In this document: piece after piece, positions 16,777 to 55,268 of the stretch | Layout: the number at the start of each line of letters is the position of its first letter | Position numbering within the stretch: the first letter of the stretch is position 1 | NCBI GenBank assembly: GCA_039096225.1 | Contig: JBBPEB010000015.1 | Location: 1,637,501 to 1,701,500 of the forward strand | Direction: 5' to 3' | Source: Blastocystis sp. Blastoise | Taxonomy: Eukaryota; Sar; Bigyra; Opalinata; Blastocystidae | Length of the DNA stretch: 64,000 bases | Made by a program: the position numbers and the translations under genes | The notes under the pieces: generated by a model | Databases searched by the model: none | What the model was told of the DNA's origin: nothing | What the model saw: only the letters and a program-made list of their open reading frames with translations

Positions 16777-16905
16777 TTCTATTTTTTTAGCCACTTATAG
16801 AAAACACACGAGTGTGCGTCATACTAAAACTAAAAATACCATTCACAAAATGTTTACTGTTTTGGAATCATATTTATTTTGTTTTTCGTTTCTAGTATAA
16901 AAGAA

Positions 16906-18684
16906 ATGAGAAGTTTATTAATCGTTTTGTCTCTTATTGCTTTTGCAAGTGCTATTCCTACGTTTGAAGTAAGAAATCAAACTTTCTATAAAGATGGTGA
17001 AAAGTTCCAATATGTCTCTGGATCTTTCCATTATTTCCGTGTTCACCCTGATCGTTGGGATGATACATTCAAGAAGATGGCTGCTGGTGGTCTTAATGCT
17101 GTTCAAACTTATGTTGCTTGGAATCTTCATGAACCTAAGAGAGGTGAATTTAACTTTGAAGGTTTTGCTGATATTGAAAGATGGTTACAACTTGCTCAAA
17201 AGAACGGTCTTGTTGTTATTATGAGACCTGGTCCTTATATTTGTGCTGAATGGGATTTTGGTGGTCTTCCTTATTGGTTAGTTAAAGAAGAAGGTATTGA
17301 TATTCGTACTAAGGATGAAAAATATGTTAAAGCTGTTGATGAATGGTTTAACGTTCTTCTTCCTAAACTCAAGCCTTATCTTTATGAAGCTGGTGGTCCA
17401 ATTATTTCTGTCCAAGTTGAAAATGAATATGGTTTCTATCCTAAGTGTGATAAGGAATATATGGGTCATCTTCGTGATTTAAATCGTGAAATTCTTGGTA
17501 AGAATGTTGTTCTCTTTACTGTTGATACTTTCAGTGATAGTGCTCTTAGTTGTGGTAATGTTGATGGTGTTTATATGACTGTTGATTTTGGTGTAACTGA
17601 TGTTGCTAATGCTTATGGTATGCAAAGAAAATATGAAAAAGTTTTCCCTCTTGTCAATACTGAATATTATCCTGGTTGGTTAGATCATTGGGAAGAAAAG
17701 CATCATACTGTTTCTACTGAAAATGTTGTTCAAAAGATGGAAGATATGCTAAATATGGGTGGTAACGTCAATTATTATATGTATATTGGTGGTACTAACT
17801 TTGCTTTCTTTAATGGTGCTAATGGTGATAGTAATTCTTATCAAGCTGATCCTACTTCTTATGATTATGATGCTCCTCTTTCTGAAGCTGGTGATATCAC
17901 TCATAAATGGGAAGCTATTCGTGATTCTATTAAGAAATACAGACCTGTTCCTGAACTTAATGTTAAGAACTCCTCTAAGGTCTCTTATGGTACTGTTCCT
18001 ATGAAAGAAGGTATTTCTTTCTGGGATGCTTATACTATTCTTGCTCCTGAGCCTGTAAAGTCAGAAGAACCTCTTTCTTTTGAAATTATGGATATTGATT
18101 TTGGTTATGTTCTTTATACTACTGATATTTCTGAAGAAGGTGAACTTTCTATTCCTGTTGTTCATGATAGAGCTTATGTTTATGTTGATCAAAAATATAT
18201 TGATACTCTTACTCGTACTGGTAATAAGAAAACTCATATTCCTGCTGGTCATTTAGAAATTCTTGTTGAAAACATGGGTCGTATTAACTTTGGTGGTCAA
18301 ATGACTGAATTCAAGGGTCTTCCTCAAGGTGTTTTACTTAATGATCAATCTGTTAAGAATTGGGTTATGTTTGGTATTACTATGAAAGATCTTTCTTCTC
18401 TTAAATTCTCTACTGAATTACCTACTTCTGCTCCTGCTTTCTTTAGAACTGTTTTTGAAGTTAAAGAACTTGGTGATACTTTCTTAAATCCTAATGAATT
18501 CAAGAAAGGTGTTGCTTGGATTAATAAGTTTAATCTTGGTCGTTATTGGACTGTTGGACCTCAATTAACTCTTTATGTTCCTCAACCTGTTCTTAAGGAA
18601 GGTGAAAATGAACTTATCATTTTTGAAGCTGAACATATTGGTGATTCTATGACTCTTCAAGATACTCCTGTTATCGATATATAA
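16906..18684 (+). CDS. lysosomal-type beta-galactosidase, GH35
   Basis: Glycoside hydrolase family 35 enzyme of the animal GLB1 type, removing terminal beta-galactose in lysosome-like compartments. The chosen start gives 592 residues with a clear signal peptide (residues 1-16, MRSLLIVLSLIAFASA). An in-frame AT-rich extension upstream lacks such sense. The TIM barrel carries SGSFHYFRVHP, RPGPYICAEWDFGGLP, QVENEYG with the acid/base Glu at about 174, and NTEYYPGWLDHW with the nucleophile Glu at about 253. It continues with YMYIGGTNFAFFNGAN and PTSYDYDAPLSEAGD. The C-terminal beta domains keep VENMGRINFGG and FNLGRYWTVGPQLTLYVP. It is slightly shorter than human GLB1 (677), mainly at the C-terminus. 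It is a single exon among intron-rich neighbours, and its codons end overwhelmingly in T (GGT, GCT, CCT), as in a highly expressed gene. Confidence 0.95.
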   Translation: MRSLLIVLSLIAFASAIPTFEVRNQTFYKDGEKFQYVSGSFHYFRVHPDRWDDTFKKMAAGGLNAVQTYVAWNLHEPKRGEFNFEGFADIERWLQLAQKNGLVVIMRPGPYICAEWDFGGLPYWLVKEEGIDIRTKDEKYVKAVDEWFNVLLPKLKPYLYEAGGPIISVQVENEYGFYPKCDKEYMGHLRDLNREILGKNVVLFTVDTFSDSALSCGNVDGVYMTVDFGVTDVANAYGMQRKYEKVFPLVNTEYYPGWLDHWEEKHHTVSTENVVQKMEDMLNMGGNVNYYMYIGGTNFAFFNGANGDSNSYQADPTSYDYDAPLSEAGDITHKWEAIRDSIKKYRPVPELNVKNSSKVSYGTVPMKEGISFWDAYTILAPEPVKSEEPLSFEIMDIDFGYVLYTTDISEEGELSIPVVHDRAYVYVDQKYIDTLTRTGNKKTHIPAGHLEILVENMGRINFGGQMTEFKGLPQGVLLNDQSVKNWVMFGITMKDLSSLKFSTELPTSAPAFFRTVFEVKELGDTFLNPNEFKKGVAWINKFNLGRYWTVGPQLTLYVPQPVLKEGENELIIFEAEHIGDSMTLQDTPVIDI

Positions 18685-19889: not shown

Positions 19890-20479
19890 TTACTCTACAT
19901 CAAATCCTGCACAATGTACGTAACCATAAATACTATTAAGAATAAAAATTAATTGACTTTCTTCACAACCACCAGGAATATAAAACATAATATTATCTTC
20001 TAATTGATATCTATTTGGACATTCTTTACAATATAAACTTACATTGACCTATTTATAATGTATATAATAAATAGAATAAATAGAATAAATAGAATAAATA
20101 GAATAAATAAAATAAATAAAATACACAAAATAAATAGAATAATGTTATATATATACAGTTCCGACTTTATTATGTCGACTACATGAGGGTGTAGTACATT
20201 CCCCGCGTACTCGAAGGAGGTCACGAAACGTACTTTGACCCATTATCAGGCTTGTAGAAGGATCGACTAGTATACTTAATTTACTATACACAAAGTATTG
20301 TATACATATATATAGTATTACATAGACAATGCTTTTATAATATTATTATATAAACTACGATAATCATGAATATAAAAATAATTAATATATTTCTGATAAC
20401 AAAAAATACAATAATATAATATAACAATATATATAAAGAATAGTATATATATAAGAATAATATATACATATATATATAA

Positions 20480-20536
<57 letters not shown>

Positions 20537-20718
20537 CACATTTAGGACATATATATCTCCATTTAATTGCTGCACCGACGGTCTCACAGAATCGACATGT
20601 AAAACGAAAATTCTTTTCAGTGATAACTTCATTTAATATTGAATCTTTCTATATATGAAAATATGCATAAATATTAAATAAATATATCTAACAATAAATA
20701 TTAAAAAATAGGACAAAC

Positions 20719-20758
<40 letters not shown>

Positions 20759-20914
20759 CACATACAGATTGTCGTGAAACTAAGATTTTTGACATTTCGA
20801 ATACATTACTATTTTTAATTTGAGAATCATCTTCTAAAACATGTTGCATATGAATTAAACGTAATTCAACGGCAGGAATGTTTGATTGTTGCTAGAAAAT
20901 AAAATTATTAAATA

Positions 20915-20953
<39 letters not shown>

Positions 20954-21376
20954 AGAATAATATATAATAAATTAAAAAAAAACAATAAACATATATATGA
21001 ATACTTGAAGACTATTTTTAACTTCTGACCATTTTTGGTTGGGACTAACACGAATACTATAGGATACGTTATCTGTGAAAAGAAACGAAAGACTAAATTG
21101 ACCATTGCTTCGCGCTTTTGCATCGTTTTGATTTTGTAATTCCTTCTTCTTTTTCATAAAGTTAACAACTCTATTGAATGAATATTGATCACATCCAACT
21201 ATTTCATCGTCTTTCTTTTCATGTCCTTCGGCTAAAATGATCAATTCATCCTCAGGAATGTTATAGTTATTACTCAAAAAACGACGAAGCAAACGAAATG
21301 TTGCATCCTTTTTGATTCCAAGATATATGGGTGTCTTTTTACTACACTCAACAACTTTAATTTTGTATTCTTCCAT
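19890..21376 (-). CDS. parkin-like protein with two ubiquitin-like domains and a RING0 zinc domain, no RBR
   Basis: Five exons encode about 300 residues. Residues about 1-70 (EYKIKVVECSKKT to RVVNFMKKKK) look like a ubiquitin-like fold. A second, clearer Ubl spans the exon 1-2 junction: FSLSFLFTDNVSYSIRVSP, EVKNSLQQQSNIPAVELRL, then VLEDDSQIKNSNVFE. Then come FTCRFC, YICPKC, GECTTPSC and LYCKEC. The first two pairs, the C-x4-C of GECTTPSC and the final pair match the order and spacing of parkin RING0 (FYVYC, VQCSTC, GECQSPHC, FKCGAH). The linking TFRDLLRVRGEC resembles parkin CWDDVLIPNRMSGEC. The protein ends about 40 residues after RING0, so RING1, IBR and RING2 are absent. It therefore cannot be a parkin-type ligase by itself. 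Introns are GT-AG, and one holds (TA)n. The RING0 call rests on pattern and spacing. Confidence 0.65.
20475..20534. repeat. (TA)n microsatellite in intron
   Basis: About 28 TA units at the 5' side of an intron of the Ubl-RING0 gene. Confidence 0.95.
20720..20755. repeat. (TAA)n microsatellite in intron
   Basis: About 12 trinucleotide units in an intron of the Ubl-RING0 gene. Confidence 0.9.
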
Positions 21377-48036: not shown

Positions 48037-51000
48037 ATTTCGTATAGCATTGTCTAATAGTTGAATAATATCATTTAAAACAGATATACTCAATGTATCC
48101 TTTTTATTAATACAATATTTAGTTAATTTTGAATAGATAGAAGAGTATTTATTAAGATAAGCAATACATTCATCATAATACGAAAGTCTGGATAACAAAT
48201 GCGCGGGAAGTAAAATGGCGGTCATTGAAGATGAGGAGATAATATATTCTGTTAGTATAGTAATAGCATAGGTATTAATATAATAAGGTATACATTCATC
48301 ACTATCTGCTATATTATATAAGTATATACATATATAATCAACAAGAATAGAATCAGTATGATTATTATATAAACAACGAAGTACAGAATTAACGGTATTT
48401 ACAGATGAAATAGATGATTTAATTGATTTAAATAATGATGGAGATGATTGTGTTCCTAAAATCATATGTTTCCAAACACGTAATATCTTTGTTTGTATAT
48501 TAATAATAGATACTGATATAAAAGAGATAGATAACGAAGAACAAATAGAAGTTGAGGCTATTGATAGAAGAGAAGAATCTATAGATAATAAGAATATAGA
48601 ATAAATAATATAAAAATTAAAAAAAAATATATTAAAAAAATATAAAAATATTTTTTATTTAATATATACTATTTTTGGTAAGAAGTATAAGAATATTAAG
48701 AAGTACATTGAGAACCGTTTCATTCTTCGAATAGAATTCGAAACAAAGAGAAAGAGAGGGAATAATTTGACGTGTAAGAAGTTTGTTAAATTGATTATCT
48801 GAAGTATTTAATATTTTTTGAATATTATTTAAAAGTTGAATTGCCATATTTTGTTCTTTATAAGTATATTCTAATACATAAGGATATATATAGATATCAC
48901 CTCTTTCTATTAAGTATGTAATATCATTTAATGATAAAGATAAACTATTTATATAATTATTGACTTCTGTAGGCTGTTCACGACATAAATATATTAATTT
49001 TTCTAATTGACTATTATTATTATTATTATTATTATTATTATCATTATTATTATTATTATTATTATTATTAGGAATAGAATTATTGATTGAAGATATAGAA
49101 CTCTTTGTATCGGAAGCTAGGGGAGAAAGCGCAGAAACGTTCTTGGTAGGGAGAATAGCTTCTGAAGGAGTTCTAGAATGTGTTCTATATTATTAAATTA
49201 ATTAATTAATAAATAAATAAATAACAATAAATAAATAAATAAATAACAATAAATAAATAAATAAATAAATATAATAATAAAAAAAATACTTTAATGAACC
49301 AACTGCTTGTTCTCTGATTTTATTTATACCATCAAATGTATTTCTATAATATAATATATATATATCTAAAAGTTATCTAATAAGAAAGAAAAAAAAATGT
49401 CTATAAAATAAAAACAAATCAAGTAAAACAATATAATAATAATATATACTGTATCTTTTGAACGGATTGAAGATCAGCATATAATTGTTGTTCTAATTCT
49501 TCTATACGTTTATCACGTTCTTGAATCATTTTCTCACGGGAATTTAACTCTGTTTGAAGAGAAGTAATTAAATCTTCGAATCCTTGAAGTTTTGCAGTCA
49601 TATCACTATATATAATATAAATAGTACTATAGAGAAAACAGAGACAAAATATTAACAAGATTTTCTTTAAATATATAAATATACAATATATGTATTAAAT
49701 AATAAATAAAAACATACCTTTGTTCTTGGATAGCTTGCTTATATTGATTATTTAATTGATCATATAATTTAGATTTATCATTATTCACGGTATTTAATTG
49801 ATTATTATTTTCTTCTTTTTCTTTTAATGATTGTGCTAATTCTTCTTTTTCTTGTATTAATTGTTTCTCTTTTTCCTCATATTCTTCAACATATGTTTCT
49901 AGTTGTCTTTTTAATTTCTTCATTTGATCTTCTAATAACATATTTCTTTCTTTAAATTCATTTTGATCTTTTTCTTGTTCACTATTCTTACTATATATTT
50001 GATATTGTAAATCTTTTATTCTTAATTCATATTCATCTTCTTTCTTTTTCCATTGTATTTTCTCATCTTCAAATTGATTCTTTAATGTTTCTAATTGTTT
50101 ATTTAATTGACTTATATTATTTAATAATTCAAATTGTTTATTTGAATAATTATTTATTAATTCTTTATTCTTTTGATTTTCTAATTCATGACTATTTATA
50201 ATTCGTTCTCTATTTTCTAATTCTTTCTGTAATGTATTCATCTCATCTTTATAGGATTGATCTAAATGCTGTTTCTCTTCTTCTTTCTCATGAATTGTCT
50301 TCTCTACTAAAGTTAAACGATTTATATAATCACGCTCTTTATTCATATTCTCATCTCTTTCATTTTTAATTATATTATTTAATTCTTCATTTTCTTTCTT
50401 CAAATCATCCAATTCTTTTTCTAATTCTTGTATATGTTTAGAATTATCACTATATATATATGATAGCATTATTAATAATAAATAATAAATAATAAATGAT
50501 AAATGATAAAATATAATTATATATAACAAAAAATTGAATACATTTTTTCTTGTTCATAAAGTGATTTATTTTCTTCTTCTCTTTGAATAATCTTTGCTAT
50601 TTCTTCTTCTTGTTCTTTCTTTAAATGAACTATTTCTTGTTCTTGATTTTGTTTTAACTCATTTATATTATTATTATTTTCTTCAAGAATTTTTGATATT
50701 TCATTAGATTTATCTTGATTATTAGTATTTAATAGAGTATTAGTTTCTTCTAAATCTTTAACTTTCTTTTTCTCTCCTTGTAATTCATCTTCTTTCTCAT
50801 TAAGAAGTGAAGTAATTTGATTATTTTTATCTTTTAAAGAATTTTCTACTTGTTTCATTTCTTCCTCAAAATCTGTATATTTTATCTGAATATCTTCTAA
50901 TTGTTGCTGATTTTCTTGTAAACTCTTCAATAAAACATTATTCTTTTGAATTAATTCCTCATTTTGGTCTTTTAACTGTTTAATTTCTTTCTCTTTCTCT

Positions 51001-54000
51001 TCTAATTTAACTTTATTTTCTTCTTTATTTTGATCTAAAGAAATCAATTCATCTTCTTTATTATTTAATATATTATCATATTCTTCTATTTGCTTCTTAT
51101 TATTATCAATAATATTTTCTAATTGTTGATTCTCTTCTTCTTTCTTATGAAGATCTTCAGATAATATATTATTCTTATTCTTTAAATCTTCAATCTGTTC
51201 TTTATATTGATTGATTTCATTATTATTATCTTCAATCTGTTCTTTATATTGATTGATTTCATTATTAGTCTCTTCAATTTTCTTCTCTAATAACTCAATT
51301 TCTTTCTCTTTATTCATAACAATCTCTTCTAAATTATTTATTTGATCTTTATTCTCTTCTAATTCTTTTTGTAAGTGATCTATCTTATCTCTACATTTAT
51401 CTAAAGAGTCTTGTAATTCATTTATAATATTCTTATTCTCTTCAATTATCTTATTTAATTCATCTATTTTATGATCTTTCTCTTTATTTTGAGTATTTAT
51501 CATTAAAACTTGTTTATCAGTAGCTGATAACTCATCTTCTTTATCATTTAATATACTATCATATTCATTCAATTGATTCTTTAATTGATCATTTTCTTCT
51601 TTTAATTGTTGAGCCTTCTCTTCATATACTTTACAAATCTCTATATTCTTATTATTAATATCATTCTTCTCTTGTATAGTTTCTTCTTGCAATTTTTCTA
51701 ATTGAATTTTTTCTTCTTGTAAATGTTTTATTTGTTCTTCTTCTTGTTGAATAGTATTCTTTAAGGATTTCATTTCTTCTTCTTCTTTTTCTTTTTCTTG
51801 AATTGTTTCTTCTTGAAGTTTCTCTAATTGAGAATACTGTTCTTCTAATTCTTGATAATCACTTATTTTCTTTTCCATATCTTTCTTTATCATTTCACTC
51901 TCTTTTTGTAATATAGACATTTTTTCTAATTCTTCTTTATATTCTTTTTCTTTTCCTTCTAATTCTTCAATAGATTCTTTTAATTTATCATTATCTTTTT
52001 GGAATCGTTTCATTTCTTCTTCTTTATTCAATAATTCTTCTTTTGAATTTGACTCTAATTGATTAATCAATTTCTCTTTTTCTTGAATTTGATTTTGAAG
52101 TGATTGTATTTCATTCTCTTTCAATTTATTCTCTTCAGATAAATCATTCATTGATTTCTTTTGTTCTTCAATACTTTTCAATAATTCTTCTTTTTCTTTT
52201 TGTAATTGTTCTATCCTATTATTATTATCTTGTATTTTCTTTAATAACTCTTCTTTTTCTTTTTGAACTAACTGAATTTCTTCTTCATATTCATTTAATT
52301 TCTTAGCTATATTTGAATTCTTTTCTTCTTCTTGATTTATATTGGATGATAATTGTTCGATAGAATTCGATTTATCTTCAAGTTCTTTATTCATAACATT
52401 ATTATTATCTTCTAATTGTTTTATTTGTTCTTCTAATTCATTTATCTTTATACAATTATTATTATTAGTATCTTCTAATTGTTTTATTTGTTCTTCTAAT
52501 TCATTTATCTTTATACAATTATTATTATTAGTATCTTCTAATAATTTAGATTCTTCCTCCAATTCATTTATCTTCAAGCAATTATTATTATTAGTATCTT
52601 CTAATACTTTATATTCTTCTTCTTTTGAAGATAATAATTGATTTAATTGATCAACTTGTTCTTTATAATTTCTCATTTCTTTTTGTAAATTTAAACATTG
52701 TTTTTCAGATAAACCTTTTTGCTCATATATATCTTTTAATTTATTTTCAGAATCTTTTAATTGATTTTCTAAATTATTTACTTGATTCTTTAATATTTCT
52801 TTTTCATTTAAAGTTTCTTCTAATTCTTTTTCTAATTTTTCAATTTCTTCGTGAAGTTTCTTTATCATTTTTTCATAATTCTCTTCTTTTATTTGATAAT
52901 CATGTTCTATATCTTCTTTTTCTTTCTTTACTTTATTTAATTCATTAATAGCATTCACTAAATCATTATGATATGTATTTTTTTCATCACTTAAAACTTT
53001 ATTTTCATCATTTAATAATATATATTTTTGTTTTTGTTCTTCTATTTCTTTCTGTTTTGATTGTAAATCTTCTAATTGTTCATTATATTTCTTTATTAAA
53101 GCTTCACTTTCAGCTATTTGTTTCTTTGCTTCATCTTCCATTAATTGCTTTTCTTTTATCATCGATTCTAACTGATTCTTTTTCTCTATAACACGATTCT
53201 TCCAATCATTTGTTTCTAATTCTTTTAATTTTAATTTATCTGAAGTTTCTCTTAAATTATTTTTTAAATCATAATTTTCACGTATTAAATCTTCATTTTT
53301 ATGTACTTTTTCAGATAATACTTGTTTTTGTTTTTCATATTCTTCTTTTAAATGATCATTTCGACCATCAGAATCAATTAAATCTTTTGCTTGTTCTTCA
53401 TAGGCTACTTTTAATGCTAAATAAGAAGCTTGTTGACCTTCATAAGCTTCATTCTTTTCTTTTTCTTCTTTTAATTCATTCTCAAGTTTAGTATATTCAG
53501 AATTTAATAATTCATTATTTGATTTTAAATTCTCATTTTCATTAGCAAGATCTTGAATTAATTTTTGTAATTCACGTTGTTTTTTCATTAATTCTTCAAA
53601 ATTATCATCATAAGATTTTAATTTTTCATTACATTCTTTTTGAATATTTTCTTTTTCTTCTTTTAATGCTAATACTTGAGTTTCATCAACTGTAGGATTT
53701 AGTTTTTCTTGATGTTTTTCTAAACGTTTCTCAGCTTCTTTCAGTAATCGATTCAGTTCATCTCCTGCAATCATATTTTCTTGTGCTTGTTTTAAATCCT
53801 TTTCATTTGATTTTATGTCAGAATTAATTTGTTTTATTTCATTCGATAAATCAGTAATATGATCTATATTTTGTTGTTTCATAATTTCTGCTGAATATTG
53901 ACGAAGATTATCTGTATAATCATTATTCTTTATATTTCTTTCTTTCTTCTTTTCTTCTATTTGTTGATATAATTCTTGAATTTGATTCTTCTTTGCTAAT

Positions 54001-55268
54001 ATATATGCATTGATATCTTTAGATATATCATCACTTTGTTTTATTAATGTATCTTGAATATTCTTTCGAGTTTTAAATACTTCATCTGAATTCCTATATA
54101 GAATATATATATATAGATAGAATAATAAAAAGAATAGAATTATAATAAAGAATAGAATTATAATAAAGAATAGAATAATAATAAAGAATAGAATTATAAT
54201 AAAGAATAGAATTATAATAAAATACTTTAATTCTGATTCTATATTAATTATAATATGATTTGTTTTCTTTGATAATTCTTGTAAATCTTCTATAGATTTT
54301 GTATTATTCATAAATATTTTCATTCGATCTTGAATAGAAGGACCATCATCAAAATAAGAACTTACTGTTGATAATTGATCTTCTAAATCAACTTTCTCTC
54401 TAAATGATGTTATTATTTATATATATGTGATCATAATAAATGAAATAATATATAACGAAATATAAATATAATATTATATATTAATAGAATACTATATATA
54501 CTCAATTAATTGAAGAAGACGATCTTGATATTCATTTAATAAATTCATATCATTATTATCAACAGTTTTAACCTTTGCACTATATTATTTTAATATAGAT
54601 TTATATAAATAAAATAATAAATAATAATAAACATAATAATAATAAATATAATAATAAACATAATAATAATAAACATAATAATAATATATATATACAGTTC
54701 AGGAGCCATAGAATGTAAGAAAACAATACCTTGTTCACTTCCATCATCAATTTCTTGACTCTTGGAAATAGCTTCTGCAAAATCAACATATTTATCACCA
54801 AACATATCTATAGCTTCACCTGTTTGGAAATCAAAGGATAAATCGAAAGATTTTGCATGATTTATAAAAAATTCCATAAAACGATTACGAGCACGAATCA
54901 ACTCTCTAAAAAGAAATATATATTATATATATATCTCATATTATATTTTCGAATATATATAAAAAAAATATTTATATATCGAATGAGAAAACATAACATA
55001 ATATTAATTTTGAAATACTTATCCTTAAGTTCTGCTATCTCTCTTTGCTCCTTAAGATCCTTTTGAGTTCGATCTAATTGTTTTGTAAGTGTTACCTTCT
55101 CACTTCTTAACAATGAAATTGTACTAAATACATAGGCAACAAATTAATAAGTAACTAAAAACGTACTCGTATACTATAGAAAAGAAAAATGAATCTTATA
55201 ATTCATATAAAAATATTTAAAAAGAAGCAGATCTATTGATATATACATTTTGATTTATCAGCATCCAT
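47501..55268 (-). CDS. giant coiled-coil protein, about 2,190 residues, with helical C-terminal domain
   Basis: I do not recognise an orthologue. About 13 exons. Exon 1 is 22 nt (MDADKSK) and exon 2 only 7 nt (55173-55167); together they join LYDTISLLRSEK in frame. Residues about 60-140 (RARNRFMEFFINHAKSFDL to FLHSMAPEL) could be a small N-terminal domain. About 1,600 residues of coiled coil follow, mostly in one exon (about 54105-50540). They include a 21-residue repeat with LEDTNNNNCIKINELEE, about four times (52340-52620). An Asn run and Ser-rich linker lead to a C-terminal region of about 370 residues made of hydrophobic helices (MAIQLLNNIQKILNT, NVLLNILILLTKN, YINTYAITILTEYII). This looks like armadillo/HEAT-like repeats. 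The protein ends SSIQQL. Such layouts occur in cytoskeletal or vesicle-tethering proteins. No function is claimed. Confidence 0.75.
52340..52620 (-). repeat. 63-bp coding repeat in giant coiled-coil gene
   Basis: About four tandem units encoding LEDTNNNNCIKINELEEQIK variants. The nucleotide sequence is also nearly identical between units, indicating recent duplication. Confidence 0.88.
54118..54225. repeat. 18-bp tandem repeat in intron
   Basis: About six copies of AAGAATAGAATTATAATA in an intron of the giant coiled-coil gene. Confidence 0.9.

Follow-up and report, generated by a model that had tools for sequence, protein, structure and literature searches.

Candidate Ubl-Ubl-RING0-like proteins and parkin-like RBR proteins encoded by separate genes in Blastocystis sp. 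Blastoise

Starting from a 64,000-nucleotide window of contig JBBPEB010000015.1 of the stramenopile Blastocystis sp. Blastoise and extending the analysis to the whole genome examined (33 Mb, 34 contigs), we describe a gene, P0001, whose product joins two ubiquitin-like domains (Ubls) to a putative RING0-like zinc domain and ends there. Together with its paralogue P0002, this protein may represent a free-standing Ubl-Ubl-RING0 regulatory subunit acting in trans on two RING1-IBR-RING2 (RBR) ligases, P0003 and P0004, i.e. a parkin in two parts, a reading to which we assign a probability of about 0.38. It builds on the anatomy of the protein, its RING0-like sequence, the existence of the paralogue and the occurrence of parkin-like RBR proteins alongside it in this genome. 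The new element is that the genome encodes two RBR proteins that, taken together, are closest to parkin by profile and for which no Ubl was found. Among open-licence papers, no literature on a parkin-like system in Blastocystis was found.

Results and discussion

Structure and integrity of the P0001 gene

P0001 occupies positions 21376-19890 of the window on the minus strand, where five exons separated by GT-AG introns form an 897-nt coding sequence without internal stop. The 298-aa product is identical to the NCBI model WA158_001316, and its domains follow the order Ubl1, Ubl2 (residues ~92-166), zinc domain and tail, up to a genomic TAA (Table 1). The preliminary description of this DNA had stated that the gene stops after its zinc domain, and this is what the gene model displays, the RING1-IBR-RING2 module that a full parkin would carry being absent from the chain. 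Missed RBR exons downstream of the gene, an eventuality raised in the same description, were rejected, as no Cys-rich frame was seen in the 289 translated bases past the TAA (to 19601); beyond the 3′ end, a plus-strand gene stops at about 19494 as judged by eye. According to PMC5608401, stop codons can be created by polyadenylation in other Blastocystis. Such a stop is unnecessary for P0001 because a genomic TAA exists, and no TGTTTGTT occurs within 600 bases of it. Finally, a truncated or broken gene is ruled out by the intact splice sites, the identical NCBI model and a paralogue of the same layout.

Two further open reading frames of the window were recorded in passing. One (50517-54323, minus strand, 1268 aa) consists by eye mostly of coiled coil with short repeats, and the other (16879-18684, plus strand, 601 aa, intronless) presumably resembles a secreted GH35 beta-galactosidase.

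Table 1. Features of the P0001 gene (window positions; residue numbers refer to the 298-aa product)
Feature	Position	Strand	Content
Exon 1	21005..21376	-	Residues 1-124: Ubl1 and first part of Ubl2
Ubl1	21376-21137	-	Residues about 1-80; supported via paralogue P0002
Exon 2	20766..20891	-	Residues 125-166: remainder of Ubl2, including S158, the equivalent of ubiquitin Ser65 (alignment column)
Exon 3	20536..20648	-	Residues 167-203, plus part of 204: CxxC pairs one and two of the RING0-like domain, with K195 and R197 at basic-patch positions
Exon 4	20157..20283	-	Rest of residue 204 to 246: F223-R-D-L-L motif, C233-x4-C238
Exon 5	19890..20048	-	Residues 247-298 with the TAA stop: final CxxC pair (C253/C256), C-terminal tail partly common to P0002, no RBR
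RING0-like zinc domain	20016..20609, introns included	-	Residues 180-257; hhalign against parkin RING0
C-terminal tail	19893..20015	-	Residues 258-298; a helix is modelled at 276-292 with low confidence

Tandem ubiquitin-like domains

Ubl2 of P0001 passes the Pfam model PF00240 (residues 102-162, E 8.2e-8), while Ubl1 alone lies below its threshold. In P0002, PF00240 matches two stretches, and the predicted model of this paralogue resembles linear di-ubiquitin structures in a Foldseek run that is informative on the Ubls only, because the two-sequence structure prediction failed for the zinc domain. The order Ubl-Ubl-RING0-like, initially proposed from the letters of the DNA, is supported. The tandem Ubls are devoid of a C-terminal GG. 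Ubl2 of both P0001 and P0002, Ubl1 of P0002 and the ubiquitin encoded by this genome carry Ser at the position aligned with Ser65 of ubiquitin, where Ubl1 of P0001 has Asn.

A genome-wide PF00240 search matched 21 places. Besides the paralogue and polyubiquitin, four of these places were read, of which two belong to locus L043, one to L046 and one to L047; no RING0-like domain was seen in the four. Locus L043 (G000:C3:1631232-1631864, minus strand) contains a 232-residue open reading frame in which about three stretches look ubiquitin-like by eye and PF00240 matches twice; a zinc domain was not seen there.

A divergent RING0-like zinc domain

In the alignments, C184/187/200/203/233/238/253/256 of P0001 are in register with C150/154/166/169/196/201/212/H215 of human parkin, which we take to be the zinc ligands of its RING0. 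All eight are kept in P0001 and P0002, in parkin order and with near-parkin spacing, and the motifs R-x2-C-x2-C, W/F-x-D-L/V-L and G-x-C-x4-C are common to both zinc domains and to parkin RING0. The parkin-like cysteine spacing and flanking residues noticed at first sight were thus recovered.

Similarity to parkin RING0 beyond the cysteine pattern was detected by profile-profile comparison, while the scores of single proteins remained within those of shuffled sequences. Using hhalign, the zinc domains of P0001 and P0002 aligned to a three-parkin RING0 profile with a probability of 90% (P 1.6e-6, score 35.7), a score reached by none of 200 Cys-preserving shuffles (maximum 23.9), and to human RING0 alone with P 2.6e-5 (6.7e-5 with the tail included). 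Ten other zinc domains, comprising RING1, IBR and RING2 of parkin, four domains from the genome's RBR proteins with a ZZ-like end (RBR-ZZ) and fragments of HypA (P 0.0011, the best of the ten), DnaJ (0.0013) and TFIIB (0.0034), all matched less well. Extended to Ubl2 plus RING0, the alignment with human parkin was collinear, with a probability of 95%, P 2.6e-8 and the eight ligands in register, and none of 100 shuffles of the zinc domain and tail alone (Cys kept) attained its score. In the PDB, the two-paralogue profile matched parkin over a stretch covering both Ubl and RING0 (lowest E 2.4e-5), parkin accounting for 5 of the best 60 of 343 matches, and the profile restricted to RING0 and tail found no parkin there. 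By contrast, neither P0001 nor P0002 matched the Pfam RING0 model PF17976 at E up to 10 (human RING0 control, 1.1e-40), and the exon-by-exon PF17976 search of the genome, in which the controls were silent too, returned nothing. A parkin RING0 HMM gave 5.2 bits for P0002 and 1.2 bits for P0001, both within their own shuffles (maxima of 7.9 with 486/500 reported and of 9.0 with 478/500 reported, respectively). Two-sequence AlphaFold2 models were poor in the zinc domain (pLDDT about 27-57).

The PF17976 misses, together with single-protein scores within shuffles, would be expected from an ordinary zinc-ribbon domain that came to resemble RING0 by convergence. So would the affinity of the isolated P0001 segment for HypA (PF01155, 21.1 bits, E 3.4e-4, below the cut-off of 28.9) and, more weakly, for PF07191, PF08271 and PF14803 (E 0.0017 to 0.0059, below cut-off). 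We consider such convergence unlikely, since profile comparison sets parkin RING0 apart from the HypA, DnaJ and TFIIB fragments, the HypA match falls to E 1.8 on the P0002 segment, and both the order after a Ubl and the eight ligands match parkin. The zinc domain of P0001 and P0002 is, in our assessment, very probably a divergent RING0-like domain. P0001 itself is not classed as parkin because its chain holds no RBR, and it also misses the Pfam RING0 model.

Paralogue and distribution of the family

The paralogue P0002 (WA158_003952; contig C16, 1033078-1034421, plus strand) has the layout of P0001 at 31% identity. Two intron positions are identical between the genes and a third is displaced by a single residue where the alignment has a gap, the phase being the same in all. 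The only cysteines invariant between the two proteins are the eight of the zinc domain, and their tails have scattered residues in common. Searching the whole genome with P0002 (E up to 10) revealed no further paralogue. Three protein searches spanning 5.8 billion proteins, in which candidates must have 5-residue words in common so that divergent relatives may be missed, retrieved, up to E 10, the four Blastoise proteins and no others (1/350, 2/2075 and 2/279 candidates), and viral contigs held no relatives. The family looks confined to the Blastoise genome within such word-limited searches.

The absence of an RBR from the P0001 gene and the reduced mitochondria of Blastocystis would also suit a formerly fused parkin of which P0001 is a degenerating remnant. 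This scenario is highly improbable given that the diverged paralogues have retained all eight ligand cysteines, a common layout, a portion of the tail and the intron positions, and that the ligase gene P0003 reads through all its exons without a stop, both ligases being predicted by NCBI.

Parkin-like RBR proteins elsewhere in the genome

The preliminary description had called for a partner carrying RING1-IBR-RING2, and two parkin-like RBR proteins without a detected Ubl were indeed recovered elsewhere in the genome. An IBR family search pointed to six places, five of which were read: four are RBR proteins ending in a ZZ-like domain by eye (L020, L021, L022 and L024) and the fifth is P0003. 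The P0003 gene (contig C33, 299093-297111, minus strand) comprises nine exons encoding 351 residues, identical to WA158_008018, and P0004 (WA158_002447, contig C8) is 47% identical to it. With P0001 on contig C4 and P0002 on C16, each of the four genes is on a contig different from the others. Pfam detects IBR (PF01485) at threshold in P0003 and has no match in P0004. Both proteins combine RING1-IBR-RING2 with the catalytic Cys and, two positions further, the His (C273 and H275 in P0003), as in parkin, and with a motif N-H-W-F/W near the end comparable to D-H-W-F of parkin.

In a phmmer search of the PDB, 15/16 matches of P0003 were parkin (best E 2.7e-8); P0004 alone and the P0003+P0004 profile found no parkin there, for which we suspect the composition filter. 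Without composition correction, a parkin RBR HMM gave 70 bits for P0003 and 62 for P0004, compared with 14 to 42 for the four RBR-ZZ proteins and with maxima of 28.8 (P0003) and 31.5 (P0004) over 500 Cys-preserving shuffles each. With correction, P0003 retained 26.2 bits and P0004 1.9, the latter under three RBR-ZZ proteins (10.4, 3.7 and 3.2) and still above its own shuffles (maximum -12.6). The joint RBR profile of P0003 and P0004 reached P 3.8e-15 against parkin RBR, and a profile built from three RBR-ZZ proteins out of the four P 3.7e-7; these RBR-ZZ proteins have the same RBR core as P0003 and P0004 but are far from them by profile (P 0.004). Of what was compared, other RBR families being covered by the PDB search and by this genome, the RBR module of P0003 and P0004 appears closest to that of parkin.

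Outside this module, both proteins differ from parkin. Inspection by eye of three frames upstream of either gene revealed no Ubl, the NCBI protein models begin at an N-terminal zinc domain, and none of the 21 PF00240 places is nearby, which is weak evidence by itself because that search also missed the intron-split Ubls of P0001; an additional Cys-rich tail follows at the C-terminus. The RING0 identity of the N-terminal zinc domain is doubtful: it scored 28.0 against RING0 with 0/200 shuffles as high, yet over 17 aligned columns only, and gave P 0.0023 against human RING0 alone and P 3e-4 against the HypA fragment. Moreover, it had no detectable similarity to the RING0-like domain of P0001 and P0002, with 34/200 shuffles scoring as high.

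Other RBR-like loci were encountered. The parkin RING1 model PF17978 had two weak genomic matches below cut-off: the one on C30 was rejected as it looks like noise, and the one on C2 corresponds to another RING1-IBR-like gene. At locus L051 (G000:C2:173500-179500, minus strand), a long open reading frame ends in RING1-IBR-like cysteines and is followed by further exons that presumably resemble the RING-Cys-relay (RCR) region of MYCBP2/Highwire, possibly forming a single RBR-RCR fusion gene. The RBR genes L010/L024 (C1:383908) and L011 (C10:43331), with identical scores of 31.3 bits and open reading frames of 1118 and 1103 aa, are perhaps near-identical copies.

A possible parkin switch split over two chains

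Compared with parkin (PRKN), P0001 and P0002 resemble its Ubl-RING0 (UPD) part in placing a Ubl before the zinc domain and in the ligands, motifs, R163 and Ser65 position described here; they differ by two Ubls instead of one, a short linker, a C-terminal tail of their own, no RING1-IBR-RING2, the loss of K211 and a Cys in place of the last ligand His. According to PMC3730226, parkin RING0, in which loops 1+4 and 2+3 share zinc, covers C431 of RING2 and accommodates F463 of the RING2 tail in a pocket formed by F146, P180, W183, F208 and F210. The equivalents of these five positions are F/Q/F/V/L in P0001 and L/T/W/F/I in P0002, i.e. four of five hydrophobic in each. In PMC11368401, phospho-Ubl binds the K161/R163/K211 patch of parkin and displaces RING2, also in trans. 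According to the alignment, the R163 equivalent is present in both paralogues, that of K161 in P0001 only and that of K211 in neither.

Because the hydrophobicity of the pocket, R163 and the Ser of Ubl2 are kept in P0001 and P0002, alongside a matching ligase tail, we infer binding between the chains, a direction of regulation and a phospho-switch. RING0 of P0001 would dock via its hydrophobic pocket on the RING2 tail (N-H-W-F/W) of the ligase, covering the catalytic cysteine. Phosphorylation of S158 would then let Ubl2 occupy the basic patch of a RING0, freeing RING2, so that the parkin switch would operate across two chains. Analogy favours this two-part model: PMC11368401 reports that phospho-Ubl can bind RING0 in trans and proposes that human isoforms lacking Ubl or RING2 complement in trans; the Ubl/RING0 and catalytic parts of these isoforms sit on separate chains issued from one gene, those considered here on products of separate genes. 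Against it, the same paper indicates that a phospho-Ubl donor bound Ubl-less parkin only after the IBR-RING2 linker was cut. No PINK1 was found in the genome by an insensitive, exon-wise search with a PINK1 query, which returned two matches (best E 2.2e-6), the better one, the one read, resembling a CDK-like kinase. Also counted against the model are the loss of the K211 equivalent in both paralogues and of K161 in P0002, the N-terminal zinc domain of the ligases being neither securely RING0 nor like that of P0001/P0002, the parkin misses of P0004 and of the pair profile in the PDB, the low corrected score of P0004, the dispersal of the genes over four contigs and the poor zinc-domain models.

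The trans-acting inhibitor, phospho-ubiquitin reader and ancestral form named in the preliminary description are all candidate identities, the phosphate-binding patch being only partly kept and no PINK1 having been found. Two other readings were considered. P0001 could be an adaptor unrelated to parkin-like ligases, its Ubls binding the proteasome, p97 or other ubiquitin receptors and its RING0-like domain binding cargo, so that parkin ancestry would be real and the function moved. Tandem Ubls that lack a C-terminal GG point to receptor binding more than to conjugation, the tail common to the paralogues was not seen in parkin and two of the three basic-patch positions vary, which makes this a possible, if tentative, reading; it sits less easily with the Ser65 position of Ubl2 and the largely hydrophobic RING2-docking pocket, both kept, and with the parkin-like RBR proteins without a found Ubl in the same genome. 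Alternatively, P0001 could be a stand-alone phospho-Ser65 sensor whose RING0 reads phospho-ubiquitin (pUb) or its own phospho-Ubl2 independently of any RBR ligase, as the conserved R163 equivalent, K161 in P0001 and the Ser residues of the Ubls and of the genome's ubiquitin might suggest. Such a sensor seems unlikely in view of the lost K211, the Asn of Ubl1 in P0001 and the undetected PINK1, and pUb binds, in parkin, the RING1 pocket and not the RING0 pocket according to PMC11368401.

Implications

Returning to the parkin in two parts, the full statement that the P0001/P0002 chains control the Ubl-less P0003 and P0004 in trans, in a stramenopile without detected PINK1, appears rather doubtful on present evidence. 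If true, it would provide a natural split of the regulator from the enzyme, making cis-versus-trans activation of parkin addressable with whole natural proteins, as well as a non-animal outgroup for studying how parkin originated. The parkin switch itself would then be older than its animal single-chain form, or separable from it.
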